Shown here one piece after another: positions 36,570 through 56,073 of a stretch of 64,000 nucleotides of DNA (its first letter is position 1; each line of letters starts with the position of its first letter). Both the position numbers and the translations under genes were made by a program. The DNA is taken from assembly GCF_900112245.1 (NCBI RefSeq), contig NZ_FOYX01000001.1:1103856-1167855 (forward strand), given 5' to 3'. This stretch comes from Maribacter stanieri. GTDB lineage: Bacteria; Bacteroidota; Bacteroidia; Flavobacteriales; Flavobacteriaceae. The notes under the pieces are model-generated. The model ran no database searches. It saw only the letters and a list, made by a program, of their open reading frames with translations, and was not told where the DNA came from.

Positions 36570-37049
36570 ATGTCAAATTACCTGATTACCGTAAATAAAG
36601 AAGAATTACAATGTAGCACTAGTAACGTAGATTCTTTAGATAGTATAATGGTCAATGAGAATACGTTTCATGTTTTAGATAAGAATAGCGCTTTTGACGT
36701 AGAAATAATTCATTCCAATTTTTTGAATAAGACCATCTCACTTTCAATTAACGGAAATATTTATGATGTTAAACTTGAAGATAAGTACGATCAACAAATT
36801 AAAAAGATGGGATTGCTGGCAGTAACCACTCAAAAACTAAATGAAGTGAAAGCACCCATGCCCGGTTTAATTGTTGATGTTTTGGTAGAGGTGGGGCAAA
36901 AGGTTATAGAGGGAACTCCTTTACTAGTACTCTCAGCTATGAAGATGGAGAATGTTATTCTTGCTCAGGGCGAAGGCAAAATAAAATCAATTGAAGTTAA
37001 AAAAGACGATGCAGTAGAGAAAGGACAGTTGATTATTGAAATGGAATAA
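36570..37049 (+). CDS. Biotin carboxyl carrier subunit of acyl-CoA carboxylase
   Basis: The 159-residue protein carries the biotin of a multi-subunit carboxylase. The C-terminal biotinyl domain (about 90-159) contains KAPMPGLIVDVLVEVGQKV and the biotinylation motif SAMKMEN, with the acceptor Lys125. The N-terminal 80 residues match the carrier arm of this Bacteroidota carboxylase type. The gene leads a three-gene operon with the biotin carboxylase and carboxyltransferase subunits. Confidence 0.9.
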   Translation: MSNYLITVNKEELQCSTSNVDSLDSIMVNENTFHVLDKNSAFDVEIIHSNFLNKTISLSINGNIYDVKLEDKYDQQIKKMGLLAVTTQKLNEVKAPMPGLIVDVLVEVGQKVIEGTPLLVLSAMKMENVILAQGEGKIKSIEVKKDDAVEKGQLIIEME

Positions 37050-37095
37050 GAACAATACTATAACCGCCATGGTTGAAAAAGAAAATTAAGTTCTA

Positions 37096-38568
37096 ATGAA
37101 AAAAGTACTAATAGCCAACAGAGGTGAAATAGCATTACGGATAATGAAGACTGCCCAAAAAATGGGTATAAAAACCGTTGCTGTATATTCTGAAGTTGAC
37201 CGTCATTCGCCACATGTAAAGTTTGCAGATGAGGCAGTTTTACTTGGTCCTGCTCCTTCATCAGAATCTTATCTAGTGATGGAAAAAGTAATTAATGCAG
37301 CTAAGGGTACAGGCGCAGATGGTATTCACCCAGGCTACGGATTCTTAAGTGAAAATGTGGCTTTCGCACAAATGGTAGAGGACAACGGTATCACTTTTAT
37401 TGGACCAAAGCCTCATGCCATTAAGGTAATGGGAAATAAACTGGCAGCAAAAGAAGCGGTTCGTGATTATGATATTCCAATGGTGCCTGGTATTGAAGAA
37501 GCCATAACAGATGTTGCCTTGGCTGAAAAGGTAGCAAAGCAAATCGGTTTTCCTATCCTAATAAAAGCATCTGCAGGTGGCGGTGGTAAGGGAATGCGCG
37601 TAGTTGAAAATTTGAAGGATTTACCGGAGCAAATGCAACGGGCTATCAGTGAGGCACAAGCTGCTTTTGGCGATGGTTCCGTATTTATCGAAAAGTACGT
37701 GGGCTCGCCTAGACATATAGAAATTCAGGTCTTGGCAGATACGTATGGTAATATTGTTCATTTATTTGAACGTGAGTGTAGTGTTCAAAGAAGGCATCAA
37801 AAAGTAGTGGAAGAAGCCCCATCGGCAGTTTTGACTCCAGAAATTAGAAATGCCATGGGAGAAGCTGCAATTAAAGTAGCTAGAGCTTGCGATTATGTTG
37901 GTGCAGGTACGGTTGAGTTTTTGTTGGATGAACAGAAGAATTTTTACTTTTTGGAAATGAATACTAGGCTTCAGGTTGAACATCCTGTATCTGAGTTAAT
38001 ATCAGGTATTGATTTAGTTGAGCAGCAAATTAAAGTAGCACGTGGCGAAAAATTGGCATTTACACAAAAGGATTTGAAAATTAAAGGTCATGCACTTGAG
38101 GTACGTGTATATGCAGAAGACCCATTAGCTGATTTTATACCGAGCATTGGTACGCTATCAACCTATAAAACTCCCGTTGGTGATGGTATTCGCGTTGATG
38201 ATGGTTTTGAAGAAGGTATGGAGGTTCCTATTTACTATGACCCAATGCTTTCTAAGTTGATTACCTATGGTAAAACTAGGGAAGAAGCTATACAGTTAAT
38301 GATAACAGCAATTAATAATTACAAGGTAGAGGGTGTTGCCACAACCTTGTCTTTTGGAAAGTTTGTTTGTGAACATGAAGCCTTTACTTCTGGGAATTTT
38401 GATACTCATTTCGTTAAAAACTATTATTCTCCAGAGCTTTTAGAAAAACAGTATGCGGAAGAAAGAAGAATAGCGGCCTTAGTAGCATTGAAATTGTATT
38501 TAGAAAATGATAAGACATTAAAAATGCCGACTAAGGTTGCTTCTAATTGGCAGAAGAGTAGGATGTAA
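37096..38568 (+). CDS. Biotin carboxylase subunit of acyl-CoA (probably propionyl-CoA) carboxylase
   Basis: The 490-residue ATP-grasp enzyme carboxylates biotin with bicarbonate and ATP. It has the biotin carboxylase N-terminal motif KVLIANRGEIALRIMKTA, the glycine-rich ATP loop KASAGGGGKGMRVVE and the catalytic EMNTRLQVEHPVSE motif, followed by the C-terminal domain DPLADFIPS. The gene lies 46 bp after the carrier gene and 28 bp before the carboxyltransferase gene. The split three-subunit arrangement and the methylmalonyl-CoA mutase genes elsewhere in the window favour propionyl-CoA over acetyl-CoA as the substrate. Confidence 0.9.
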   Translation: MKKVLIANRGEIALRIMKTAQKMGIKTVAVYSEVDRHSPHVKFADEAVLLGPAPSSESYLVMEKVINAAKGTGADGIHPGYGFLSENVAFAQMVEDNGITFIGPKPHAIKVMGNKLAAKEAVRDYDIPMVPGIEEAITDVALAEKVAKQIGFPILIKASAGGGGKGMRVVENLKDLPEQMQRAISEAQAAFGDGSVFIEKYVGSPRHIEIQVLADTYGNIVHLFERECSVQRRHQKVVEEAPSAVLTPEIRNAMGEAAIKVARACDYVGAGTVEFLLDEQKNFYFLEMNTRLQVEHPVSELISGIDLVEQQIKVARGEKLAFTQKDLKIKGHALEVRVYAEDPLADFIPSIGTLSTYKTPVGDGIRVDDGFEEGMEVPIYYDPMLSKLITYGKTREEAIQLMITAINNYKVEGVATTLSFGKFVCEHEAFTSGNFDTHFVKNYYSPELLEKQYAEERRIAALVALKLYLENDKTLKMPTKVASNWQKSRM

Positions 38569-38596
38569 AATTGCAATAAGGATTTGAACGATTACA

Positions 38597-40138
38597 ATGA
38601 AAAATAATAAAGAGATATTAGCAGAGAAACTGGCGTTGGGTAAAATGGGTGGTGGTCAAGAACGTATTGACAAACAGCATGCCAAAGGAAAGTTAACTGC
38701 ATATGAACGTATTCATTTTTTGTTAGATGAAGGGTCATTTGAAGAAATGGGTGCTTTAGCAACCCACCGTACTAAAGATTTTGGTATGGAAAAACAAGTC
38801 TTTTATGGTGACGGAGTAGTAACGGGATATGGAACCATCAATGGAAGACAAGTTTGTGTTTTTGCACAGGATTTTACTGTTTTCGGTGGTGCGTTATCTG
38901 AAACCCATGCCGAGAAAATCTGTAAGATTATGGATATGGCCATGAAGATTGGTGTGCCTATGATTGGTTTAAACGATAGTGGTGGTGCACGTATTCAAGA
39001 AGGAGTTCGTTCTTTAGGTGGTTATGCTGATATTTTTCATAAGAACGTAATGGCATCAGGAGTAATTCCACAAATTTCTGCCATAATGGGTCCATGTGCC
39101 GGTGGTGCTGTATATTCACCTGCAATGACCGATTTTACTTTGATGGTAGAGAACTCCAGTTATATGTTTGTAACTGGACCAAATGTGGTTAAAACGGTTA
39201 CAAATGAAGAGGTGACTTCAGAAGAACTTGGTGGCGCGTTGATCCATGCTACTAAATCTGGGGTAACACATTTAACGGCTGCTAACGATATTCAGTGTAT
39301 CAACCAAATTAAGCAGATAATTAGTTACATGCCTCAGAACTGTGAGGATAAACTAGCTGATATTCCATTTGTACTTGGTAATGAGGTTCGTGAAGTATTA
39401 GAAGAAATTATACCTGAGAATGCAAATCAACCATACGATATGCGTAACGTCATCAACGGGATTATTGATCAAGATTCATTCTTTGAAATACACGAAGCCT
39501 ATGCTGATAATATTGTGGTAGGTTTTGCAAGACTTGGAGGTAAAAGCATTGGTGTTGTTGCCAATCAGCCTATTAGTTTGGCTGGTGTGCTTGATGTCGA
39601 TAGTTCTAAAAAAGCAGCACGTTTTACTCGTTTTTGCGATTGTTTCAATATTCCGCTTTTAGTATTGGTAGATGTTCCAGGATTTTTACCGGGTACAGAT
39701 CAAGAATGGAACGGTATTATTACAAACGGTGCTAAATTGTTGTATGCGTTAAGTGAAGCAACAGTACCTAAAGTAACTGTTATTACGCGAAAAGCATACG
39801 GTGGTGCGTATGATGTTATGAACTCCAAACATATTGGAGCCGATTTAAATTATGCGTGGCCAGGTGCAGAAATTGCGGTTATGGGCGCAAAAGGGGCAAG
39901 TGAAATTATATTTAGAAAGGAAATAAGTGCTGCTGATGATCCAGAAGCAAAACTCGCCGAAAAAGAGGCGGAGTATGCAAAGTTATTTGCTAATCCGTAT
40001 AGTGCTGCGCAAAGAGGATTTATAGATGAGGTTATTCTGCCGAAAGATACTAGGAGAAAACTCATAAAAGCGTACACTTTGCTCGAAAACAAAGTAGCGG
40101 TTTTACCTAAAAAAAAACATGGCAATATTCCATTATAG
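38597..40138 (+). CDS. Carboxyltransferase subunit of acyl-CoA (probably propionyl-CoA) carboxylase
   Basis: The 513-residue protein is the beta subunit of PccB/MmdA type. It has the acyl-CoA/carboxybiotin binding segments [39 protein letters not shown] and [17 protein letters not shown], then [19 protein letters not shown] and the crotonase-like GGAYDVM region. It transfers the carboxyl group to the acyl-CoA, giving methylmalonyl-CoA from propionyl-CoA. Residues do not allow a firm choice between propionyl- and acetyl-CoA. It converges on the lacI gene after 15 bp. Confidence 0.9.
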
Positions 40139-40153
40139 TAGTATGGTGGCATT

Positions 40154-41179
40154 TTAAACTCGTAATGAAGAATCCCTTACTATAAGGCTAGTCTTAATTT
40201 CTACCGTTTTAGTCATTACATCATTACTAGGGGCTTCAATCTCCTCTATTAAGAATCGTACGGCTGTACGCCCAATTTTATCTCCTGGCTGGTCTACCGT
40301 AGTTAATGAGGGACTAATTATGGTTGAGTTAATAGAGTTACTGAACCCTACCACAGCAATTTCTTCAGGTATTTTGACCTTAAATTTATGTAGCGCTTTA
40401 ATGGCACCAATTGCGGCATTGTCGGTAATTGCAAAAATAGCATCCGGGCGTTTTTTCATGCTTAATAGAATATTCGTCAATCGTCTACCATTGGCTAATG
40501 AAATATCTTCGGTACTTAAAATTAGCTTGTCCCGTACAGGAATATTGTATTGGTTTAATGCACGTAAGTAACCGGCATATCTCTTTTCAGAATTATATGA
40601 GTTTTCTGTTTCTTTAATAATGGCAATTCGTTCTTTTCCTAATTCAATTAAATGTTCAACCGCATTAAATGCAGCTTCTTCTTCATTGATAACTATTTGT
40701 GTACATGGAATTTTACTAGATACTTTATCAAACAATACTAATGGAATCCTATTAAAAACTTTTAGTACCTCTTCTAATTTAGTTGTTTTACGAGCCAAAG
40801 ACATTAAAATACCATCAACTCCAAATTGGGTCATCGTATTCAACATTTCTACCTGTTTTATTTCATCATTGTTAGATTCTGATATAATAACCCTGTAACC
40901 GCGTAGTTCTGCTTCTTCTATAACCCCTTTTAAAATAGTGGATGTGAATAGATGGGAGATGTTGGGTACTATAACTCCTAATATATGTGTTTCGCGAGAA
41001 CGGAACCCTCTTGCAAATAAGTTAGGAACATAATTCATTTGCTTTGCCAACTTTTTCACTCTATCCTTTGTGTCTTGGCTTATATCTGGGTGGTCATTTA
41101 ATGCCCTAGAAACTGTTGAAATAGAAAGATTTAGCTCTTTTGAAAGTTCCTTTAAAGTGGTATTTCTCTTTTTGCTCAT
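40154..41179 (-). CDS. LacI family transcriptional regulator of the glycosyl-glycerate locus
   Basis: The 341-residue protein has the LacI helix-turn-helix near the N-terminus (TLKELSKELNLSISTVSRAL, then the hinge NYVPNLFARGF). The periplasmic-binding-protein-like core (about 62-341) follows, with ILGVIVPNISHLFTSTILKG, FGVDGILMSLARK and PDAIFAITDNAAIGAIKAL. It is divergent from the TonB receptor, and two LacI-type operator-like sequences lie between the genes. I infer repression of the transport and breakdown genes until an inducer such as a glycosyl-glycerate or its breakdown product is bound. Confidence 0.88.
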   Translation of the reverse strand: MSKKRNTTLKELSKELNLSISTVSRALNDHPDISQDTKDRVKKLAKQMNYVPNLFARGFRSRETHILGVIVPNISHLFTSTILKGVIEEAELRGYRVIISESNNDEIKQVEMLNTMTQFGVDGILMSLARKTTKLEEVLKVFNRIPLVLFDKVSSKIPCTQIVINEEEAAFNAVEHLIELGKERIAIIKETENSYNSEKRYAGYLRALNQYNIPVRDKLILSTEDISLANGRRLTNILLSMKKRPDAIFAITDNAAIGAIKALHKFKVKIPEEIAVVGFSNSINSTIISPSLTTVDQPGDKIGRTAVRFLIEEIEAPSNDVMTKTVEIKTSLIVRDSSLRV

Positions 41180-41236
41180 AATTGTAAATCAGTTAATTAT
41201 GATGTTTTCCTCTGAAATACAATACTACAAAATAAA

Positions 41237-41264
41237 TTGCAAACGTTTTCGCAATCGTTTGCAT
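41237..41264. promoter_or_regulatory. Tandem LacI-type operators between lacI and the TonB receptor
   Basis: Two CG-centred palindromes, 12 bp apart, fill 28 bp. The left one (core AAACGTTT, 41241-41248) lies in TTGCAAACGTTTTCGC; the right one (GCAATCGTTTGC) is at 41251-41262. The outer arms TGCAAACG (41238-41245) and CGTTTGCA (41256-41263) also form a perfect inverted repeat. The form GCAAxCGxTTGC is the usual LacI-family operator. Confidence 0.75.
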
Positions 41265-41374
41265 AGGTATCTCGTTAATTTTTGGTTAACAGAATATCAT
41301 ATTCGTATAATTTAGCTTCATAATCAACGATTTGACAATATTAATCGACTCAACTTAAAAAAAACTCAAACATT

Positions 41375-44050
41375 ATGAAGAAAATTATTTTTGCGGTAAT
41401 CGGACTTCTTTTAAGTGCAAGCTCCTTTGCACAGACCGATATTTCAGGAACTATAACAGACAGTTCAGGAGCACCAATTCCCGGTGCTAATATTTTAATT
41501 GCAGGTAGTACATCGGGTACAACATCAGATTTTGATGGTAATTTTACTTTTTCTACAGACTTAACTGGTGCTCAAGTATTGCGTATATCTTATATAGGGT
41601 TTACATCGGTAGATAAGCCGTTAACTTTAGACGGCACTTCACAAACTGTAAACATTGTACTTCAAGAAGGTGGTCAGTTATTAGATGAGGTAGTTTTAAC
41701 CGCATCCAGTACTTTTCGTTCTCAGAAGCAGGCTCCTTTATCTATTAGCTCTGTGAAGATGAAAGAAATTACTAAGCTATCCGCTAACAGTCAGGCAGAT
41801 ATTCTTAGAAGTGTGCCGGGTATTACCGCTGAAGGTGGTGGAGGTGAAACGGCAAGTAACATATTTGTTAGAGGTTTGCCTTCTGGTGGTCAGTATGTTT
41901 TCAATCCTTTACAATATGATGGTATGCCTTTGATTAGTTCTTTTGGACTAAATTCTTCTGCGCATGATGTCTACGCAAGGCCCGATATTGGATTTAAAGG
42001 TGTTGAATTTGTGCGTGGTGGTGCAGCTGTATTATATGGTGCAGGTTCTGTTGCCGGTATTATCAACTACACTAGTAAAACAGGTGATACAAACCCGGGT
42101 AATATTATCAATATAGAAGTGGCTAACCAAGGTAGAATTAAAACGGATTTTTATTCTGGTGGTCAATTAGGTGGCGAAGATTCTAACACGTACTATGCAT
42201 TTACAGGTTTTGTTCGTCATGATAGAGGTCCTATAGATGTTGGTCTTCCAACTAAAGGGGTTCAGTTTAGAGGTAATATTAAAAAGAAATTTGATAATGG
42301 TTCTTTTACTTTAAGCGGACAGTTTATTGATGATAAGGCACAATTTTATCTTCCAATTCCATTAAGTGGTGGTAGTAGAGAACGTATAAATGGTAATGAT
42401 GGAAACCCTGTAGAGCAACTTTTGACTGGTGCTTTAGCGAATACTTCATTTAATACGCCTGGTGGAACATATAACAGTCCAATAGCGGATGGTGTTGCAA
42501 CTACAGGTGGTTATTTAATGGGTGATTTCAATTACAGATTCGAAGACGATCTTAAGTTGACTTCTAAAATTAAGTATGCTAATTACAAGCATAATTTCGC
42601 TCTTTATGTAGGTGGTAATGGTGTTAACGGAAACCCTATCACACTTGATAATTATGTGGAAAGTATTGCTACTGGTAATTTAGGGTATACTGGAGCTTAC
42701 CAAAGTGGTTCGGGTTCTCAAATTAACGGTAACGATCTAGTGATTGATAATTTACATGTGGATCGTTTACGTCCGATGACAGATTACTCTGGTGAAATCA
42801 ATTTGACAAAATCTATAGAAACTGCAAATGGTGGTAACCATAACATAACTGTAGGTTCTTACATTGCTCGTACAGAGGCTGAAGATGTTAACTATCAGTA
42901 TAGAGTATTGACAGAATTCAACAATAACCCTCAATTGGTAAACTTAAATTATACCGATGCTAGTGGTAATAATGTGGTGTATTCGCAAGGCGGACTTTAT
43001 AATCGTATTGGTCAAACAGCTAATAACTTTCTATCTCAAAATAGAGTAGCATTATATGTTACAGACGAGATGATTTTGGACAGATGGCGTTTTGATGTTG
43101 GTTTCAGATGGGAGCATACAGGTGGTATAAATAGTCGTGGTGGTATAATGAGCGAAACAGTTTATACTACACCAGATATTACTACAGAATTAAGCGATGT
43201 ACAAACTGCAGATGGTACTTTCTTAAGAACGGAAGTTAATGCAAATGCATGGGCATTGTCTTTAGCTGGTTTATATGAGCTAACTGAAACAACCAACCTT
43301 TATGCTAACTTCTCTAAAGGATATTTCTTTCCGCAATTAAGAGGTTTTGCTCCTGTAGCCGGTATTTCTGAAAGTCCTTATGATGCAGAAAATATTATAC
43401 AGTTTGAAGCTGGTGCCAAGTTTGGAAATCAAAAATTCTCTGGTTCGGTAGCTGGTTACTACGTAGGTCTTAAAGATCGTATTTCTATTCGTCAGGCAAT
43501 TGTTGCAGGTCAATTAATAGATGAGACAAGAGCGGAGCAAAACACAAGAACAATAGGTATAGAGGCTACTTGGGATTACAACCTTGCACAGTATTTAAAT
43601 CTTCGTGGTAATGTAACTTATCAAGACCATGAGATTACAAAAAATACCGATTTCGATTTAGTTAACGGTACTTCTACAGAGGCTAATGTTGGTAATGAGT
43701 TGGCAAGACAACCTAATTTATTGGGTGGTTTAGGTCTGTATTATGATAATGCAGCATTTGATGCCAATTTCGGATTCAACTATACGGGAGCAAAGTTTAC
43801 AGATGATACGAATAATATAGAATTAGATGCCATTACAATTGGTAGGTTAGGTGCCGGTTATACATTTTCTAAAGAGGATAACAACCAATCGGTTCGTTTA
43901 GGGGTATCGGTTTTCAACCTTTTTGATAGCGACGGTATTACAGAAGGTAACCCAAGAGCAGGTTCAGCAGGTCAAACAGAATCTGAATTTTTTGTTGGAC
44001 GACCCATTTTACCTAGAAGATTGTTTTTAACGGCAACTTTCAATTTTTAA
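41375..44050 (+). CDS. TonB-dependent receptor for a probable glycosyl-glycerate
   Basis: The 891-residue outer-membrane receptor has a signal peptide (1-19, ending SSFAQ) and a carboxypeptidase-like domain (about 20-105). The plug follows (DILRSVPGITAEGGGG, then IFVRGLPSGGQYVFNPLQYD and VEFVRGGAAVLYGAGSVAGI), then a beta-barrel ending ALFLTATFNF-like (RRLFLTATFNF). No SusD partner is present, which fits a small substrate. It is the first gene of the LacI-controlled set; a strong terminator-like hairpin separates it from the enzyme gene. Import of mannosylglycerate or glucosylglycerate is inferred from the genes that follow. Confidence 0.85.
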   Translation: MKKIIFAVIGLLLSASSFAQTDISGTITDSSGAPIPGANILIAGSTSGTTSDFDGNFTFSTDLTGAQVLRISYIGFTSVDKPLTLDGTSQTVNIVLQEGGQLLDEVVLTASSTFRSQKQAPLSISSVKMKEITKLSANSQADILRSVPGITAEGGGGETASNIFVRGLPSGGQYVFNPLQYDGMPLISSFGLNSSAHDVYARPDIGFKGVEFVRGGAAVLYGAGSVAGIINYTSKTGDTNPGNIINIEVANQGRIKTDFYSGGQLGGEDSNTYYAFTGFVRHDRGPIDVGLPTKGVQFRGNIKKKFDNGSFTLSGQFIDDKAQFYLPIPLSGGSRERINGNDGNPVEQLLTGALANTSFNTPGGTYNSPIADGVATTGGYLMGDFNYRFEDDLKLTSKIKYANYKHNFALYVGGNGVNGNPITLDNYVESIATGNLGYTGAYQSGSGSQINGNDLVIDNLHVDRLRPMTDYSGEINLTKSIETANGGNHNITVGSYIARTEAEDVNYQYRVLTEFNNNPQLVNLNYTDASGNNVVYSQGGLYNRIGQTANNFLSQNRVALYVTDEMILDRWRFDVGFRWEHTGGINSRGGIMSETVYTTPDITTELSDVQTADGTFLRTEVNANAWALSLAGLYELTETTNLYANFSKGYFFPQLRGFAPVAGISESPYDAENIIQFEAGAKFGNQKFSGSVAGYYVGLKDRISIRQAIVAGQLIDETRAEQNTRTIGIEATWDYNLAQYLNLRGNVTYQDHEITKNTDFDLVNGTSTEANVGNELARQPNLLGGLGLYYDNAAFDANFGFNYTGAKFTDDTNNIELDAITIGRLGAGYTFSKEDNNQSVRLGVSVFNLFDSDGITEGNPRAGSAGQTESEFFVGRPILPRRLFLTATFNF

Positions 44051-44081
44051 AAAAGTTTGTTAGTTTAAGTTTAATTGATTG

Positions 44082-44118
44082 CACATTGGCAATTGGAGAA
44101 TTGTCAATGTGTTTTTTT
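44082..44118 (+). terminator. Strong hairpin with T-run after the TonB receptor (attenuator)
   Basis: A 13-bp stem (44082-44094 with 44099-44111, one G-T pair) has a 4-base loop and is followed by seven Ts. It lies 31 bp after the receptor stop and 12 bp before the enzyme's ATG, with no space for a promoter in between. It should therefore cut, but not stop, transcription into the enzyme genes. Confidence 0.8.
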
Positions 44119-44129
44119 ACCAGTAAAAT

Positions 44130-45443
44130 ATGAAGGAAGATTTATATAAGAAAGCTATTGCAGTATTAGATGCAAATTTTCAAGATGGAGGTTTTACCAT
44201 ACCAAGCGCAGGTTTATATCCTTTTCAATGGAAATGGGATTCTGGCTTTATAGCCATTGGTTTTGCCCATTATGATGTGGAAAAAGCAAAAACAGAAATG
44301 AGGACTTTGTTAGATGCCCAATGGAAAAATGGCTTTATACCACATATTGTTTTTCATACAGAAAACGATTCTTATTTTCCTGGAGCAGATTTTCATCATT
44401 CAGAATTACACCCATTATCTTCTAAAAGATATAGATCTACGGGTATGACGCAACCACCGGTAACAGGTTTTGTTTTGCAGGAAATGTATCGTATTGCCGA
44501 CGATAAAAAAGACATGCTGAATTTTATCAAAGAAGAAATTGATAAGGTGTATGCAAATCATGAATATTTCTATAAAAATAGAGATCCACAAGATGAAGGT
44601 TTAGTGTACATCTACCATAACTGGGAATCTGGTACTGATAATTCTCCGGTTTGGGATGATATATGGAAAACCATGAATCCGCCAGAATACGATTTTGTCC
44701 GAAAGGACACCACCCATGTAGATGCTTCTCAAAGACCTTCTAAGAGGGAGTACGATCATTATTTACATATTATAGATATTGCTAAGCAAAACAATTATAA
44801 CGATGCTAAAATAGCTGAGCTTTCTCCGTTTTTAGTTCAAGATCCATTGTTCAATGCCATGTTGATCAAATCTAACCAGGCATTAATAGATCTGTATATA
44901 CAGATAGGTGGTAATGAAGAAAGGATAAAGAATATTATAAAATGGCAATCTAAAAGTATTAAAAGTTTTAATGATAAGTTATTTGATGCCGACTTGGGTG
45001 CTTATGTTCATTACGATTTAAGAAATGAAAACCCAATTCGTCATATCACGTCATCATCTTTTTCTCCACTTTTCGCAAACATACCAAGTCCAGAGAGGGC
45101 TGACGTTTTAGTGAACACTATGATGGATAAGTTTGGCGGAGAGGATAAATATCTATGTGCTTCATTTGATCCTACTAATGACCGCTTTAATCCCAGAAAA
45201 TATTGGAGAGGTCCCGTATGGATAAACATGAATTGGATGCTCTTTTTAGGACTTAAAAATTATGGTTTTACTGATGTTGCTGCACGTATGAAGCAAGATA
45301 GCATTGAGCTTATCGAAAAATATGGTTTTTACGAATATTTTGATTGTAGAAAGGATACTGGAGATGAAAACCCTACTGGCTACGGCGGTAATAATTTTTC
45401 ATGGAGTGCTGCTTTATTTATTGATATGGTAAATACGGATTAA
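44130..45443 (+). CDS. GH63 mannosylglycerate/glucosylglycerate hydrolase-like enzyme
   Basis: The 437-residue protein has a (alpha/alpha)6-barrel glycosidase fold of the GH63/GH37 type and the usual length of single-domain mannosylglycerate hydrolases. Motifs seen are PFQWKWDSGF (31-40), GFIPHI (68-73), NWESGTDNSPVWDD (164-177) with the likely acid Asp170, YWRGPVWINMNW (358-369) and YEYFD (401-405), then GGNNFSWSAALFIDM. No signal peptide is present, so it is cytoplasmic. It would split mannosyl- or glucosyl-glycerate into sugar and glycerate, matching the glycerate kinase downstream. A trehalase-like activity is an alternative, but the gene context argues for a glycosyl-glycerate. Confidence 0.78.
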   Translation: MKEDLYKKAIAVLDANFQDGGFTIPSAGLYPFQWKWDSGFIAIGFAHYDVEKAKTEMRTLLDAQWKNGFIPHIVFHTENDSYFPGADFHHSELHPLSSKRYRSTGMTQPPVTGFVLQEMYRIADDKKDMLNFIKEEIDKVYANHEYFYKNRDPQDEGLVYIYHNWESGTDNSPVWDDIWKTMNPPEYDFVRKDTTHVDASQRPSKREYDHYLHIIDIAKQNNYNDAKIAELSPFLVQDPLFNAMLIKSNQALIDLYIQIGGNEERIKNIIKWQSKSIKSFNDKLFDADLGAYVHYDLRNENPIRHITSSSFSPLFANIPSPERADVLVNTMMDKFGGEDKYLCASFDPTNDRFNPRKYWRGPVWINMNWMLFLGLKNYGFTDVAARMKQDSIELIEKYGFYEYFDCRKDTGDENPTGYGGNNFSWSAALFIDMVNTD

Positions 45444-45473
45444 AGCTTTCGTATACCTCTAAAAAGTTAAATT

Positions 45474-45560
45474 ATGAATTACATTGACTACATTATAATT
45501 GCATTTTATATTCTTGGGATCTTAGGAGTTGGTTTATTGATCAAAAAGAATAAAAGCTAG
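45474..45560 (+). CDS. 28-residue peptide duplicating the transporter N-terminus
   Basis: An ATG reading frame encodes 28 residues, MNYIDYIIIAFYILG... ending LIKKNKS. The downstream symporter starts MNYIDYIIIVVYLVG, so both share their first nine residues and have a similar hydrophobic helix. The upstream DNA around each ATG is also alike (aattatgaatta). The frame stops 3 bp before the symporter's ATG. It is either a partial duplication of the 5' end of the gene or a membrane microprotein that works with the transporter. Its expression is not shown. Confidence 0.55.
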   Translation: MNYIDYIIIAFYILGILGVGLLIKKNKS

Positions 45561-45563
45561 ATT

Positions 45564-47168
45564 ATGAATTATATAGACTATATCATTATCGTTGTTTACC
45601 TAGTGGGTTTTTTAGGACTGGGTTTTATGTTCAAAGACAATAATACTGGAGGAGATTATTTTTTAGGAGGCCGTAAAACATCTTGGTTGCCCTTAAGTTT
45701 ATCTGCAATGGCAACCCAACTGTCTGCAATCAGCTTTATTTCAGCTCCTGCATTTGTAGGTCTCAAAGAAGGTGGTGGTATGCAATGGCTTACCTATGAA
45801 TTAGGTGTCCCCTTGGCTATGGCCTTTTTGTTAATTGCAGTATTGCCAACGTTATATAAATCAGGTATAGTTAGTGTTTATGAATATTTAGAAACACGAT
45901 TTGATGCTTCTTCTCGTTTATTGATAAGTTTTGTTTTTCAAATAAGTAGATCGGTAGCTACCGGAGTTATGGTGTATACTATGGCATTGATTTTACAAGC
46001 TACTATTGGATTAGAATTTTGGATATCTATTTTGATAATAGGTCTTATTACCATGGTCTACTCTTTTCAAGGAGGAATGAAGGCAGTTATTTGGGGCGAT
46101 GTTATTCAAATGAGTATTCTTTTTATTGGTATTATTATCTGTCTTTATTTCGGATTTAGCGAGCTTGGCGGAGTAGATAATTTTCTTACTCATGTAGATA
46201 CCGATAGAATTACTGCTGTAGATTTTAATAAATGGGGTTTCAATAATGCCGATGGAAATGATGAATTTGGGTTTTGGCCCATGGTCATTGGTGGCTTTTT
46301 TCTTTACGCTTCTTATTACGGTACAGATCAAACTCAGTCGCAACGATTGTTGTCTTCTAGTAGCATGTCTAACCTGAAAAAGTTGATGATGGCGAACGGA
46401 CTTCTGCGTTTTCCTTTTACATTGACTTACTGTATTATGGGGCTTGTATTAGGTACATTGTTATTACAAGATGTAAGTTTTCAAGAACAGATGGAAACTG
46501 TTTATCAAGCTAATATTGGTTCTCTACAAGGAAAAAAAGCCGATTTAATGGTGCCTGTTTTCATTATCAAATATTTACCTAATGGTGTTATTGGAATTTT
46601 AATTGTGGCTATTATGTCAGCAGCAATGTCAACTTTAAGTTCAACGGTAAATTCATTATCTGCGGTAACTATGGAAGATTTTGTCAAAAGATTCAATCCT
46701 AATATGCCCGATAAAAAATACATGACGTATTCAAAATTATTGTCCATTTTTTGGGGTCTGGTATGTTTGTTCTTTGCATTTTTTGCAGGTAATATAGAAG
46801 GTACGGTAATAGAGGTAATCAATAAAATAAGTTCTGTCTTCTACGGTCCCATTTTAGCAGCTTTCATTTTAGCGATTCTTACCAAGAGAACACATGCACT
46901 TGGTGCAAATATTGGTATCGTAGTAGGGGTGTTGTTTAATGTTTATCTATGGCTTTACGTACCTCAAATATTTTGGTTCTGGTGGAATGCTCTTGGTTGC
47001 TTAGTAACTGTAGTGGTTGCTTTAGCAGTTAGTTACACTGTTAAAAGACAGGTTAACGAAGGTTTAGAAGTAACGTACTATTCTGGTAAAAAAGAGGTTG
47101 CCATTTTACTCGCTTATTTTGTGGCTATTGTTCTGTTCAGTATCTCTCTACCAAATATGTTGAATTAA
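45564..47168 (+). CDS. Sodium:solute symporter (SSS family)
   Basis: The 534-residue inner-membrane protein has about 13-14 membrane helices. SSS features include GGRKTSWLPLSLSAMATQLS, SFISAPAFVGL, ARFDASSRLL-like ETRFDASSRLL and SAAMSTLSSTVNSLSAVTMEDF. It should use the sodium gradient to bring the substrate across the inner membrane, completing the route begun by the TonB receptor. Specificity is set by context: the enzyme gene before it and the glycerate kinase gene 10 bp after it. Confidence 0.9.
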   Translation: MNYIDYIIIVVYLVGFLGLGFMFKDNNTGGDYFLGGRKTSWLPLSLSAMATQLSAISFISAPAFVGLKEGGGMQWLTYELGVPLAMAFLLIAVLPTLYKSGIVSVYEYLETRFDASSRLLISFVFQISRSVATGVMVYTMALILQATIGLEFWISILIIGLITMVYSFQGGMKAVIWGDVIQMSILFIGIIICLYFGFSELGGVDNFLTHVDTDRITAVDFNKWGFNNADGNDEFGFWPMVIGGFFLYASYYGTDQTQSQRLLSSSSMSNLKKLMMANGLLRFPFTLTYCIMGLVLGTLLLQDVSFQEQMETVYQANIGSLQGKKADLMVPVFIIKYLPNGVIGILIVAIMSAAMSTLSSTVNSLSAVTMEDFVKRFNPNMPDKKYMTYSKLLSIFWGLVCLFFAFFAGNIEGTVIEVINKISSVFYGPILAAFILAILTKRTHALGANIGIVVGVLFNVYLWLYVPQIFWFWWNALGCLVTVVVALAVSYTVKRQVNEGLEVTYYSGKKEVAILLAYFVAIVLFSISLPNMLN

Positions 47169-47178
47169 TACGATAGCT

Positions 47179-48303
47179 ATGAAATTTGTAATTGCACCAG
47201 ATAAGTTTAAAGGATCCTTAACCGGATTCGAGTTTTGCGATGCGGTAGCAGAAGGACTTCAAATGGTTTTTAAGGATGCTGAAATTATCAATAAACCTTT
47301 GGCAGATGGTGGTGACGGGACTATTGAAGTTGCCAAATACTATATTAATGGAGAGAAGATTACCATAACCGTAAGCGATCCGCTTTTTAGACCCATTAAT
47401 GCTTCTTATTTGTATTCAGAAGAGACTAAAATCGCATATATAGAAATGGCAGAAGCATCTGGCTTAAAATTATTGGGCGATGATGAACGTAATTGTATGA
47501 TAACTACAACATCTGGTACTGGGGAATTAATTTATGATGCACTTGATAAGGGTGCTAAAGAAATTATTCTTGGTATAGGCGGCAGTGCTACCAATGATGG
47601 TGGTATGGGTATGGCAAATGCATTGGGCTATCAATTCTTAGATGAGCATGGTAAAGAATTGGTACCTATTGGTCAAAATCTTTCTAAAGTAAAATCGATA
47701 GATGATTCAAACAAACACGTAAGACTAAAAGAAGTAAAAATAAAAGTCGCTTGCGATGTTACTAATCACTTCTACGGATTAAATGGAGCTGCCTATATTT
47801 ATGCAGCACAAAAAGGAGCTTCTGAAAATGAAATTATAGTATTGAATAATGGTCTGCATAATTTAGCTGAAGTTATTAAAAGCAACTATAATATAGATTT
47901 ACAAAAAATAAATGGTGCCGGCGCAGCTGGTGGCGTAGGAGGTGGTGCACTTACTTTTCTTGATGGGGAACTAATTTCTGGGATTAATCTTATAAAAGAA
48001 TTGGCAGATTTTGATACCACAATAGATGGTGCAGATTGGATTATTACGGGTGAAGGTCAGCTAGATGAACAAACGCTGTCCGGTAAAACTATAGATGGTG
48101 TAATAACTTCAGCCAAAATAAAAAATATACCCGTGGCAGCATTATGTGGTTCCGTGAGTATAAGTGTAAATCAGCAAAATAAATTTGGTCTCACATATGT
48201 TTCTTCAATTGTGAGAGGTATTTCTACGTTACAAGAAGCTATGAATAATAGTCATGAAAACCTTGTAAACGCTACTTACAATTTCGCTAGTTTACTTAAA
48301 TGA
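47179..48303 (+). CDS. Glycerate kinase (GarK/GlxK family)
   Basis: The 374-residue kinase phosphorylates D-glycerate, with 2-phosphoglycerate the usual product in this family. It starts with MKFVIAPDKFKGSLTG, followed by KPLADGGDGTIEV and the nucleotide-binding region LGIGGSATNDGGMGMANALGY. GAAGGVGGGAL and WIITGEGQLDEQTLSGKT close the signature. The genes from enzyme to kinase are tightly spaced on one strand. This kinase is the strongest clue that the locus handles a glycerate-containing substrate. The sugar released by the hydrolase would be handled elsewhere in the genome. Confidence 0.88.
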   Translation: MKFVIAPDKFKGSLTGFEFCDAVAEGLQMVFKDAEIINKPLADGGDGTIEVAKYYINGEKITITVSDPLFRPINASYLYSEETKIAYIEMAEASGLKLLGDDERNCMITTTSGTGELIYDALDKGAKEIILGIGGSATNDGGMGMANALGYQFLDEHGKELVPIGQNLSKVKSIDDSNKHVRLKEVKIKVACDVTNHFYGLNGAAYIYAAQKGASENEIIVLNNGLHNLAEVIKSNYNIDLQKINGAGAAGGVGGGALTFLDGELISGINLIKELADFDTTIDGADWIITGEGQLDEQTLSGKTIDGVITSAKIKNIPVAALCGSVSISVNQQNKFGLTYVSSIVRGISTLQEAMNNSHENLVNATYNFASLLK

Positions 48304-48525
48304 TTTTTTATTGTTTTAGAATATTTGCGATTCTGTAACTTGATATATCAGAAATTATAATCCATGAACTACAAACTTTTTTGGCTTTTAAAACATCGTT
48401 TTGAAAGAAATCTATCCTTAGGTATTTCTGCGTTTACATTTCATATTCTACTATTGACAACGTTTTATTAATGGGCTGGTGCCCTAGCATTACCTATAAA
48501 ATACATATGTAATCAGTATGCGCAG

Positions 48526-49731
48526 ATGGTGAACAAAAACAAGTTAGCGGATAATTTTGAACATTATGCGTATATGGGTAATGAATCTACCTATGAAGAG
48601 TCAGATTTTGCTCCGTCATTTAATAATAAGTTCTTAGTGTTTTATACGGGTAGAGACTTAGAAACTACCTCTAGAAGTTCTACACCTTATTTAAATCTGT
48701 ATAAAACTACAATGCCAGGAACATTAGGGGCTTCAGATATTTTTATGGTAGAGGTATATAATGTTGGTAGCTATGGTATTCCTCAAAATTTAGGTTCTAA
48801 GATTAATACGGAGAGTAAGGAAACCTTTCCTTTTATTTCCGATTCTGAAGTTCTGTATTTTGCATCAGACGGTCATCCGGGTTTAGGAGGTTTAGATATT
48901 TTTTCCATCGATTTGAAAAACCAAGGAAAGGTTAAGAATTTAGGAAACCCAATCAACAGTCCTAATGACGATTTTTCATTAATATTCGATGATGAAACCA
49001 GTTCGGGTTTCTTTGCTTCTAACCGAACAGGTGGTATTGGTGGCGATGATATTTATGCTTTAAAAACTATTGACTGTATAGTAAGTATTTCTGGGAATGC
49101 TGTTGATAAGGATTCTGAAAAACCATTGCCATTTGCAACTATTAATGCGAAAAAAATATCAAGAGGAAATATCGGTGAAGCACAAACAGATGCGCAAGGT
49201 AATTATACTATAGAAATACCGTGTCAAGAAAGTCAGTACTCCATTGTCGCTAATTTAGAAGGGTATGAAGAAGGGTCGCTTTTTATGATTACTACACCTG
49301 ATGAAAAAAAAGTTAAGAACGCACGTGTAATTCTTGAAGAGAGCAGTAAGGTTGCGGTTATTGGTGCAGATTTAGTAAAAGTTCTGAAACTAGCACCTAT
49401 ATATTTTGATTTGAATAGTTCTTACTTACGTAATAATGCTTTTGAGAATCTAGATAAAGTAGTGGCGTATATGAAGAAAAGACCAGAGGTAAAAGTGGAA
49501 ATAGGGGCGCACACAGATAGTCGCGAAGAGGATGACTATAACTTATGGCTTTCTGACCGAAGAGCTAAGAGAACAGTTGCCTATATTATTTCTGAGGGTA
49601 TAGACAGTAGTAGAATTACCGGAAAAGGATATGGGGAGACCGAATTGATTAATAAATGTGTAAACGGTGTCATTTGTTCGGACAGAGACCATCAATTAAA
49701 CAGGCGTTCTGAGTTTATTCTTATAGAGTAG
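48526..49731 (+). pseudogene. Truncated OmpA-family protein with PD40-like repeats, probably degraded
   Basis: The 401-residue reading frame has PD40/WD40-like repeats (about 30-175, ASDGHPGLGGLDIFSIDLK and FFASNRTGGIGGDDIYALK). A CarboxypepD_reg-like domain is at about 182-270, and an OmpA peptidoglycan-binding domain follows (DLNSSYLRNN, IGAHTDSREEDDYN, RRAKRTVAYII). Relatives in flavobacteria are usually about 640 residues with a signal peptide and TPR repeats, and often follow a PorP/SprF gene. Here no signal peptide is present, and the repeat region looks shortened after STPYLNLYKTTM. An in-frame stop (about 48469-48471) separates it from an upstream ATG at 48364 whose 35 codons are unlike the family. 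I read it as a decayed gene, though an expressed short form is possible. Confidence 0.6.
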
Positions 49732-49759
49732 GTCTATAAATGTTAATCTCAAAGATTCT

Positions 49760-51532
49760 TTAGTCTCCTTTTAATACTTCAATTTCCTTAATTATACTTA
49801 AAGGTTTTCCGTATGTAGTAAAGCCGTTTAAAATTATTTCATAGGTACCTTCTAGATCAGAGGTGTAAAATTCAAAATCATAAGTACTATTGGCAATATT
49901 AAATTGTGGATTCCAGTATAACAACCTTCTGTAATCTGGTACTCGGTCAAAAGTTGTATCACCTAATTGGTATGTTTGAACGAAGTAGTTTTTTTTAGAT
50001 ATAGGTTGTTTGAAAGGTACCACTAAACTGTTTTTTGAAGTATAACTATCTAGAAAATTACCTTTAAAGGTTTCTATTGAAATAATACCTTGATACTCTT
50101 TTGAACCTAAACGAAATTGATCCCTTGTCAAACTTATTTTTTCAATCTTACGTGCGTCATATGTTCTTATTTGCTCGTGATTGGGAATGTACACTCCATC
50201 AATTAGAACAATTGCAGGAAAGTCGTTATACTCTTCGTCATATGATTTAAAATCTTGCCCAATTCTAATATATGCATCATTAGTATTTCCTTTTCTAAAC
50301 CCTGCAAATTTGACCACTTCTACCAACGACTCTTCCAGCGTAGGAAATCGAGTATAATCATCTAAAATAATTACTTCTGGTATGCCTCCATTAAAGATAT
50401 CTATAGGATTACTCTCTAATATCGAATCTGGTTTTGAACCAAAAAATTGATTTTCAATTTGATTTAAAACACTTCTATTTTTAATATATTCTTCTTGATT
50501 TCTCGATAGATTAAAATCTGAAAATTTTAAATCGCTTAGGTCTATATTTTCTGGCTCACCTTTTTCTATTATATATGTTCCATCTTGGTTTTCAACTTGT
50601 ATTACGGCAAAAGGATTTTTACGGTCTTTACGTATGTAAGAATAGAAATTTCCGTTTTGGTCCGTTTCTGAGAATTTAAGTAACGATTCTTTTCCAGGTA
50701 TAGAAATAACTACAGGAAGGTTTTCTGTCGGTAATCCTGTTTCAGTATTTTTTACCGTTCCGTATATCAGTTCTCCTCTTTGTTCCGGTAAAAAAATACT
50801 GTCTCCAATGGTTTGTTTTATTTCTTTATCGGCATTGAAGTATGCGTTACCATATGTGATGGAGTTTATAGCCGATGCTATGGCTATTTCTTCTTTTCTT
50901 TTCACTTTTATGGTATAAGAACCATGACCTAACCCCCCTTTGAAATTTTTGATATTGAGATTTACTATTTCCCTTGGGAGATAAGTAGATTTATTTGTGC
51001 GAATGGTTAGTGTTGACGAATCTGAAATTATAGTTGATTTCACAGTATTGGGCAAGACATCTCCACGAGATATGTCTAACAATGTGGATTGGTCTGCTAA
51101 ATACGGATTAATGATTACGATGTCATCTTTAAATACTTGAGATAATCCTGAATTTTTCATCCACTGGGTATATCCTAATAATTTATACCTGCCTGAAGGG
51201 ATTTCTGTTGAAACAAAAAAATCGCCATAGCCATGTCCCTTTTCTAATTTTACTTTATGCTCAAATATAAATTCTTTAGATTCGTTTACTAGAGCAACAT
51301 ATCCAATCTTACTAACATTGGTAGGGTTGTTGGTTTGAGCATTAAAGCAATGCAAAGAATAAACTAAATATTCCCCAGAAAATACCAATGGTCCGTTATG
51401 GTCAACATATGATTTTTCTTGAGGTACTTTTTTTAAATTTAAAAGATCTGATCTATCTTTTATTACATATTGGGCATGGCTCAAACTGGTGAACATCAAT
51501 ATAATAACGGCAAGTATTTGTCTTTTTTTCAT
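49760..51532 (-). CDS. Secreted MG2-like protein with plug-like domain
   Basis: The 590-residue protein has a signal peptide (1-20, ending SHAQ). Beta-sandwich domains of MG2/macroglobulin type cover about 40-260, with a repeat-like carboxypeptidase-type fold near residues 255-320 (LIYGTVKNTETGLPTENLPV). A TonB-plug-like segment follows at about 360-470 (IVLIDGVYIPNHEQ, then GIISIETF), and the protein ends with strands. This pattern is common in Bacteroidota proteins encoded next to TonB receptors. It is the last gene of the three-gene set and starts 7 bp after the DUF4249 gene. The function is unknown; a partner of the receptor is likely. Confidence 0.7.
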   Translation of the reverse strand: MKKRQILAVIILMFTSLSHAQYVIKDRSDLLNLKKVPQEKSYVDHNGPLVFSGEYLVYSLHCFNAQTNNPTNVSKIGYVALVNESKEFIFEHKVKLEKGHGYGDFFVSTEIPSGRYKLLGYTQWMKNSGLSQVFKDDIVIINPYLADQSTLLDISRGDVLPNTVKSTIISDSSTLTIRTNKSTYLPREIVNLNIKNFKGGLGHGSYTIKVKRKEEIAIASAINSITYGNAYFNADKEIKQTIGDSIFLPEQRGELIYGTVKNTETGLPTENLPVVISIPGKESLLKFSETDQNGNFYSYIRKDRKNPFAVIQVENQDGTYIIEKGEPENIDLSDLKFSDFNLSRNQEEYIKNRSVLNQIENQFFGSKPDSILESNPIDIFNGGIPEVIILDDYTRFPTLEESLVEVVKFAGFRKGNTNDAYIRIGQDFKSYDEEYNDFPAIVLIDGVYIPNHEQIRTYDARKIEKISLTRDQFRLGSKEYQGIISIETFKGNFLDSYTSKNSLVVPFKQPISKKNYFVQTYQLGDTTFDRVPDYRRLLYWNPQFNIANSTYDFEFYTSDLEGTYEIILNGFTTYGKPLSIIKEIEVLKGD

Positions 51533-51539
51533 AATACTT

Positions 51540-52844
51540 TTATTCTTCCATCCAAAAGTCTGGTACTATATTACTTCCTAATAATGTGCAATCTCCGCAT
51601 ATTCTGGGAACAAAGATATATGGGCCGGGGCAACTTGCGTCTGGGACTAAGCCTTCATTGTAATCAGAATAATAACTTACTGTAGCCTTATCTATTCTTT
51701 CAAGCAATCCTTGGGGGCATCGATCCGTTGGAAAGTTAAATAATTTTGCAGTTTCAAAACCACAATTGAATGCAAAAGGAGGTATTTCTTCTGGAAAAAA
51801 ATCTTCGTAATTTAAAAAGATGCGCTGGTTGGCAACACCCACTGCTTCTACTTGGCCATACACATTTTCAAAGGCTCCGTCCTTGCGATGTACATTGGCA
51901 TAGATGGCTCCTGGTTGTATTTGGGAAAATACATTATCGGATTGGGAAAAAGATTGAAGGATTTTATAAAAAGAATTAGCATCTGCAGATTGTACTTGTT
52001 GTTGTACCAGTATGCTATAGCGTTGGGCGATAATGAAATTATCCTTAGTAATAAAACGTACTTTATGTTTAGAAACATTCCCCTCAGAAACCCCAGCTGT
52101 ACTGAGAACATCAATAGTATTTGAGGAAACGGTATTATAGCAAATACGATCTTCTTTTTCTTTTTCAACAACCTCTAAATCATAATCGACAACATCATCA
52201 ATGCCGTCATAATTTGTTAGTTCAAACTCAAAATTCTGCCATAAAGGTGCTACAATTTTATAAGTTTCGGCATAAGTATATTTGAAATATTCGGTATTAC
52301 CTTCTAATGGTTCACTATCTACATAAATGGCAATACCTTCTTCTCCGCTATCATTTTCAGCTTTTTCAGCATACACATTTGTGATTCTAGAGGTTCCTTG
52401 AATAGTGATAGCATCAGATATATATTCTTGTCCATTATTTCTTTTGATGTCTAAGGTATAATTGACGCCCATTTGTAAAGCGAACGGAGAGTTGGAATGA
52501 TAAATGCCATCTTCAGATTCTGTGAATATATATTCTTCGCCATTTTCACTTTGTAACTTAACGGATGCACCAATTTCCCAATCAACGGAATCAAAAGGTC
52601 TAGTGCCTAACGGAATATACGGATTGTAAATGGTATCAGTTTCTAAATCTAAACGATTTGAACTTCGGCTTAAATAAACTTTTTGAATGATAGCTTCATT
52701 TGTAAGAACAGCTTCAACTACTAAAGAAGTTGAAGAATCATTTTCGTTTAAGGTATCAATTTCAATTTCTTCAACACAAGCACTAAAAATAGCAGAGACT
52801 AATAAAATCAAAATACTATTATGTAAAAATCTATTTCTAAACAT
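51540..52844 (-). CDS. DUF4249 domain lipoprotein
   Basis: The 434-residue lipoprotein has lipobox FSAC (Cys23) and a DUF4249 region: IEIDTLNENDSSTSLVVEAV, then IIQKVYLSRSS, a central GVNYTLDIKRNNG and a Cys-rich end (CPGPYIFVPRICGDC). DUF4249 proteins pair with STN-containing TonB receptors and probably sit on the outer-membrane surface as ligand-binding partners, much as SusD does, but this has not been shown. It is 13 bp from the receptor gene upstream. Confidence 0.88.
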   Translation of the reverse strand: MFRNRFLHNSILILLVSAIFSACVEEIEIDTLNENDSSTSLVVEAVLTNEAIIQKVYLSRSSNRLDLETDTIYNPYIPLGTRPFDSVDWEIGASVKLQSENGEEYIFTESEDGIYHSNSPFALQMGVNYTLDIKRNNGQEYISDAITIQGTSRITNVYAEKAENDSGEEGIAIYVDSEPLEGNTEYFKYTYAETYKIVAPLWQNFEFELTNYDGIDDVVDYDLEVVEKEKEDRICYNTVSSNTIDVLSTAGVSEGNVSKHKVRFITKDNFIIAQRYSILVQQQVQSADANSFYKILQSFSQSDNVFSQIQPGAIYANVHRKDGAFENVYGQVEAVGVANQRIFLNYEDFFPEEIPPFAFNCGFETAKLFNFPTDRCPQGLLERIDKATVSYYSDYNEGLVPDASCPGPYIFVPRICGDCTLLGSNIVPDFWMEE

Positions 52845-52857
52845 TTATGTATCGATT

Positions 52858-55707: not shown

Positions 55708-56073
55708 GTTGGTTGGTTGGATTGTTACAAGATATGAAAAAGTAGAAGATCATGAAATTGGATGCTTAAAATAATATGCCTGTTTTTTTGCGAAAAAGAA
55801 AATTAGAGACTTGGTTTATATGAATTTAATAATTTGTTCTTAACCCATTTGCTTGAAGGTGATTAAAGGGTGTTCGTTTAGTTGTTGATATGTCTTATTT
55901 TACAAAAACATATTAAAAAGCAAGCTCTGTTTTTAGATTAGCAAAATTTTATTTAGTACAGATTTTTAATACAGTATCAATTTTGCATTTCATTATATAT
56001 CAGTAATTTATTACTATTTTTAACAGATATTCTTGTTAAAACATAAAAATTGGGTCAATCTCATTCTAATATA
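55708..56073. other. Divergent intergenic region, no gene seen
   Basis: This 366-bp AT-rich region separates the minus-strand receptor operon from the plus-strand histidine kinase. I found no RNA gene, no strong hairpin and no TAnnTTTG element with a correctly spaced TTG on either strand. A TTG start at 56050 for the kinase is possible but weaker than the ATG at 56074. Confidence 0.4.

Follow-up and report, generated by a model that had tools for sequence, protein, structure and literature searches.

Which solute is served by five adjoining genes of Maribacter stanieri that encode a LacI/GalR-family regulator, a TonB-dependent outer-membrane receptor, a GH63 glycoside hydrolase, a sodium:solute symporter and a glycerate kinase? 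The genes lie in a stretch of 64,000 nucleotides, hereafter the window (contig NZ_FOYX01000001.1, positions 1,103,856 to 1,167,855), which is part of a genome of 4.46 Mb assembled in nine contigs. A first-pass annotation of the window had proposed that they take up and break down a glycosyl-glycerate compatible solute. What we observed is a conserved gene set, a hydrolase whose class and active-site residues can be assigned, and a candidate operator, and we consider it likely that the five genes form a cassette, under LacI control, for scavenging an alpha-glycosyl-D-glycerate, the best candidate being 2-O-alpha-mannosyl-D-glycerate (digeneaside).

The hydrolase, encoded at 44130-45443 on the plus strand, is of the mannosylglycerate/glucosylglycerate hydrolase type and matches PF22422, the MGH1-like glycoside hydrolase family, with 308.3 bits (cut-off 27) over the whole profile (1-356 of 356). 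Its solved relatives, the best first, are the mannosylglycerate hydrolase (MgH) of Thermus thermophilus (312 bits; 42% identity, 172/409 aligned residues), the glucosylglycerate hydrolase MhGgH of Mycolicibacterium hassiacum (211 bits; 33% identity, 136/406 aligned residues) and YgjK (45 bits). Using the catalytic and substrate-contacting residues of MhGgH (5ohc) as given in passages of PMC6608630, we found that 18 of the 19 positions are identical in the Maribacter hydrolase. The catalytic acid Asp182 and base Glu419 (MhGgH numbers) correspond to D170 and E402, and the glycerate-contacting residues Y30, W34, Y82, R202 and Y358 are kept. The sole changed position is Gln434, which is Phe423 in the Maribacter enzyme and Phe408 in Thermus MgH, and in the alignment reads Gln in the 5ohc row and Phe in the 6g3n chain. 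In 23 other homologues the catalytic and contact positions were mostly constant; among the changes were His72 to Gln (L067, L188 and L189), Phe83 to Tyr (L067, L078 and L185) and Gln108 to Met (L187 and L188). A divergent paralogue from a genome of the same family (L196 in G266; 29% identity), which we left out of all counts, differs at several positions, including Trp34, Tyr82, Arg202 and Tyr358.

An AlphaFold model of the hydrolase, with a mean predicted local confidence (pLDDT) of 88.7 and values below 50 at residues 167-169 in the cap, superimposed best on Thermus MgH TTHA0978, also a GH63 enzyme (4wva; Z 52.2, 409 residues aligned, 1.8 A), followed by the MhGgH entries (Z about 48, top 48.3), YgjK (Z about 33) and trehalases (Z about 30). 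The Maribacter and Thermus enzymes thus have both fold and active-site residues in common. Weaker Pfam matches to Trehalase (49 bits) and Glyco_hydro_63 (37 bits) also exceeded their cut-offs, as they might if the protein were a GH63/GH37-type trehalase or alpha-glucosidase with a mere passenger kinase beside it. However, the 308 bits for PF22422, the fold ranking, the retained glycerate contacts Tyr30, Trp34, Tyr82, Arg202 and Tyr358, four of which the paralogue L196 has lost, and the linkage to a kinase gene in 78 of 80 loci (see below) make such an enzyme extremely improbable, and we rejected it.

The glycerate kinase gene (47179-48303, plus strand) was identified by PF02595 (456 bits) and TIGR00045 (428.1 bits, cut-off 168.45). 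The best solved relative of its product is 3cwc, and the equivalogs for a 2-phosphoglycerate and a 3-phosphoglycerate product both score below cut-off. Upstream of it lies the gene for the symporter of the SSS family (45564-47168, plus strand; PF00474 and TIGR00813 above cut-off). Among the solved relatives of this protein, NIS, SMVT and SMCT1, carriers of iodide, vitamins or monocarboxylates, are the nearest and rank above SGLT, which gives a weak hint that a charged solute or glycoside may be carried. The receptor gene (41375-44050, plus strand) specifies a CarboxypepD_reg-like N-terminal domain, a plug and a TonB barrel, preceded by a signal peptide that is apparent by eye. No signal peptide was apparent by eye, without a predictor, at the N-terminus of the hydrolase, and we propose from this absence that the enzyme is cytoplasmic. 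A polysaccharide utilisation locus of the SusCD type was rejected, since the receptor reached 103.5 bits against the SusC-type model TIGR04056, below its cut-off of 368.25, and none of the six proteins scanned (40154-49731) matched the SusD family. The LacI/GalR-family regulator (40154-41179, minus strand; Pfam LacI and Peripla_BP_3) is transcribed divergently. The arrangement described in the first-pass annotation, with a SusD-less receptor and a signal-less hydrolase among five adjoining genes, was therefore confirmed.

Co-occurrence of these gene families in other marine Bacteroidota had been put forward as a check by that annotation, and in the loci that we compared it exceeds chance. We used 80 named flavobacterial loci, picked on the hydrolase alone as the top-scoring of 254 confirmed ones; this choice leans to close relatives, and the closest are from Maribacter, with hydrolase identities of up to 92%. 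All five genes are present together in 73 of the 80 loci. Among the other seven, contig ends truncate five, and the last two, L092 and L093 from Maribacter, have no receptor match. Gene by gene, a divergent LacI gene was found in 76, the receptor in 78 (some partial at contig ends), and the symporter and the glycerate kinase in 78 each. Because of shared descent, these loci are not independent trials. In a sample of 299 Flavobacteriaceae genomes, which overlaps with the named set, 114 had some match to the hydrolase and 42, the M. stanieri genome included, a full-length match at 53% identity or more. For the window and 40 of the other 41 full-length loci (G158, with a 69% identical hydrolase, and the partial G281 were left out), the stretch read contained the symporter in 40, the kinase in 36, LacI in 23 and the receptor in 21 of the 41 loci. 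The hydrolase occurs in 9 of 9 genomes of the genus of G001, and G301, a single-contig genome of that genus, has all five genes and the candidate operator described below. The cassette is also found in Flavobacterium species, some of which are probably non-marine. In a phylum sample, 19 of 395 genomes matched the hydrolase with an E value no higher than 1e-60, and 12 of the 19 are not from Flavobacteriaceae. Ten out-of-family loci were counted, one per genome (L185-L192, L194 and L195, leaving out G360 and L193 of G313), and L185, L186 and L187 have a symporter and/or a receptor near the hydrolase.

The composition of the cassette shows some variation. The otherwise constant cassette of L086-L165 comes with either of two receptor types (about 50% alike) and either of two symporter types (about 52% alike). 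In 20 of 80 loci (e.g., L098, L103 and L129), the hydrolase and symporter genes have a GNAT acetyltransferase gene between them, with some of the matches being partial. In 8 of 41 loci (e.g., L067, L068 and L071), a gene that looks MurQ-like by eye, without a family scan, belongs to a divergent cluster before the hydrolase that replaces LacI and the receptor.

As to the sugar, in 10 of the 80 named loci the kinase gene is directly followed on the same strand, 7-83 bp beyond the kinase match, by a full-length gene for ManA, the class I mannose-6-phosphate isomerase; an eleventh match is a fragment. The copy that was scanned lies above the NCBIfam manA cut-off, and ManA adjoins the kinase in 5 of the 41 family-sample loci. 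In L191 and L192, whose hydrolases are 41% and 39% identical to that of M. stanieri, the genes for mannosyl-3-phosphoglycerate synthase (MpgS) and phosphatase (MpgP) adjoin, both above their equivalog cut-offs; since the two loci come from one out-of-family genus, we count them as one occurrence. Judged by gene context, the ManA linkage and the MpgS/MpgP neighbours point to mannose rather than glucose.

These two linkages, the closer relationship to Thermus MgH than to MhGgH and the Phe at the Gln434 position all speak against a variant of the same system in which glucosylglycerate from cyanobacteria and other microbes would be the main natural substrate and mannosylglycerate a side activity. 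The best NCBIfam family of the hydrolase is in fact GluglyHdase (NF047898, the glucosylglycerate hydrolase equivalog), but with 327.3 bits it stays far under the cut-off of 550. Glucosylglycerate is listed among the putative osmolytes of a saline mat consortium in a passage of PMC5507952, related enzymes act on both substrates according to passages of PMC6608630, and the presence of the cassette in Flavobacterium species would also suit such a substrate. On balance, we regard this variant as unlikely. The class of the hydrolase, its active-site residues and the kinase linkage support the proposed breakdown of a glycosyl-glycerate, and together with the ManA and MpgS/MpgP neighbours they favour mannosylglycerate as the likeliest one.

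Several observations weigh against a mannosylglycerate cassette. In passages of PMC6608630, the MgHs of Thermus and Selaginella are described as similarly efficient on mannosylglycerate and glucosylglycerate, so that the sequence of the enzyme alone would also fit glucosylglycerate, the substrate named by its top, albeit sub-cut-off, NCBIfam match. There is no ManA in the window locus or in 69 of the 80 named ones; the closest ManA of the M. stanieri genome lies on another contig. No dedicated mannose kinase was identified in this genome, in which three ROK matches exist. The genome also has a second glycerate kinase. In the family sample, 18 of the 41 loci have no LacI gene and 20 no such receptor in the stretch read, and L062, L064, L065 and L066 hold hydrolase and symporter with no adjoining kinase. 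Of two genomes in the sample from the same genus as M. stanieri, one (G286) has the hydrolase and the other (G075) lacks it. Finally, a glycerate kinase was found near the hydrolase in none of the ten out-of-family loci, where other kinase families were not sought. The second glycerate kinase gene (G000:C9:419251-420351, L038) directly follows a gene for a sodium:sulfate/citrate-type symporter, and these neighbours may form an uptake pair of their own, for glycerate or some related acid.

Does the hydrolase act on an imported solute or on one made by the cell itself? Thermus synthesises its own mannosylglycerate, whereas the Maribacter enzyme sits among genes for import. Likewise, MhGgH, which prefers glucosylglycerate, is thought to mobilise an internal solute in passages of PMC6608630, in contrast to a hydrolase that shares its cassette with a TonB receptor and a symporter. 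Turnover of an own compatible solute would agree with the MpgS/MpgP genes beside the hydrolase homologue in the two genomes of the outgroup genus. However, MpgS was not found in the M. stanieri genome by a search that, as a control, detected it in Thermus composti, and no GpgS scored above cut-off, GT78-type synthases not being searched for. These results and the import genes of the cassette make import the better fit. We therefore rejected own-solute turnover, which seems very unlikely, and the hydrolase more likely serves an imported solute.

The gap between the LacI and receptor genes contains a candidate operator, the 12-bp palindrome GCAAACGTTTGC, often in tandem. Allowing at most two mismatches, it was present in 23 of 23 loci of the discovery set and in all 74 named loci with both LacI and receptor matches, the organisms being partly shared with the discovery set; the six named loci without a LacI or receptor match (L092, L093, L099, L106, L108 and L163) were left out. 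Two abutting copies at a 12-bp pitch occur in 58 of the 74. When the gaps were shuffled 100 times by mononucleotides, a mean of 0.15 of the 74 loci had a site (maximum 2), and outside the gap the same loci contain 35 such sites in 944 kb. In the window, the copies GCAAACGTTTTC (41239-41250) and GCAATCGTTTGC (41251-41262) abut each other, each with one mismatch to GCAAACGTTTGC. The number of matches in the whole window (2) is not above the chance expectation (mean 2.59), and the weight of the operator thus lies in its conserved position. A scan of the M. stanieri genome at the same threshold gave 8 matches, with the window site counted on both strands, versus 15 in a reversed control, and the best match was the window site. 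With no excess elsewhere in this genome, the regulator looks local and no wider regulon is visible. We propose that the LacI protein is a local repressor of the cassette that would act at this candidate operator.

From these findings we infer the substrate, the transport steps, and the repression with its ligand. The SusD-less receptor would take a small anionic glycoside across the outer membrane and the sodium symporter would carry it across the inner membrane, after which the cytoplasmic GH63 enzyme would split it into mannose and D-glycerate by an inverting mechanism. The D-glycerate would be turned into phosphoglycerate by the glycerate kinase, and mannose may be phosphorylated by a sugar kinase encoded elsewhere in the genome and then isomerised by mannose-6-phosphate isomerase. 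Unless released by a ligand, the divergently encoded LacI protein would keep the cassette repressed from the palindromes between its own gene and the receptor gene.

Passages of PMC8072126 refer to genes for digeneaside breakdown in Zobellia galactanivorans (citing Barbeyron 2016) and to homologues in Maribacter dokdonensis 62-1, with the same proposed substrate and lineage as the M. stanieri cassette, and a passage of PMC6298971 mentions digeneaside among further possible substrates. Since such genes have already been cited for relatives, this type of locus was very probably predicted earlier in print. The digeneaside passages of PMC8072126 name no genes, operator or ManA link, and the passage of PMC6298971 likewise shows neither operator nor isomerase link. 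The M. stanieri cassette is a well-supported member of an already predicted kind, with a few new details, and as a class it is no surprise in view of this earlier prediction by others. A literature search, which covered titles and abstract openings with subscription papers mostly outside its reach, brought up no experimental work on how Bacteroidota use digeneaside, and the papers within reach gave no biochemical proof of such a cassette. In E. coli, mngRAB provides regulated uptake and hydrolysis of external mannosylglycerate, as proposed here, but with a phosphotransferase system (PTS) transporter, a phosphorylated intermediate, a GH38 enzyme and a GntR-type regulator.

The first-pass annotation had also described mannosylglycerate as abundant in red algae, which holds only in part: according to passages of PMC8523428, most Ceramiales accumulate digeneaside and some early red algae contain it, but its part in osmotic acclimation is minor at most, and its level remained low in one of the algae examined. 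We infer that red-algal digeneaside may be the natural source, against which the presence of the cassette in Flavobacterium species can be held. A broader idea, which we put forward tentatively and with slightly more doubt than confidence, is that Flavobacteriaceae commonly possess a dedicated, LacI-regulated TonB/sodium-symporter route for mannosylglycerate, recognisable by its tandem 12-bp operator, and that their lineages have swapped receptor and symporter types. If so, a small algal solute and not a polysaccharide would account for a conserved transporter set in many flavobacteria, including a SusD-less receptor whose proposed ligand is small and charged. The occurrence in Flavobacterium would then suggest that glycosyl-glycerates are a general carbon currency beyond red algae, and cassette and operator would provide a sequence signature for tracing the turnover of digeneaside and other glycosyl-glycerates in metagenomes.

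Three open reading frames (ORFs) at 36570-40138 end just before the LacI gene and were read by eye, without a family scan, as biotin-carrier, biotin carboxylase and carboxyltransferase components of an acyl-CoA carboxylase. On the other side of the cassette, four genes (48526-55707) separate it from position 56050. They are missing from the corresponding place in genome G286 of the same genus (L039), reflecting either an insertion in the M. stanieri genome or a loss in G286. They include an OmpA-family ORF, whose match to its NCBIfam models is confined to their C-terminal half, and a DUF4249 gene together with a TonB receptor gene (51540-55707). In 8 of 40 other loci, all belonging to a group that shows no LacI/receptor part, the region downstream of the kinase carries a receptor of the same cluster and a DUF4249-type gene on the opposite strand.

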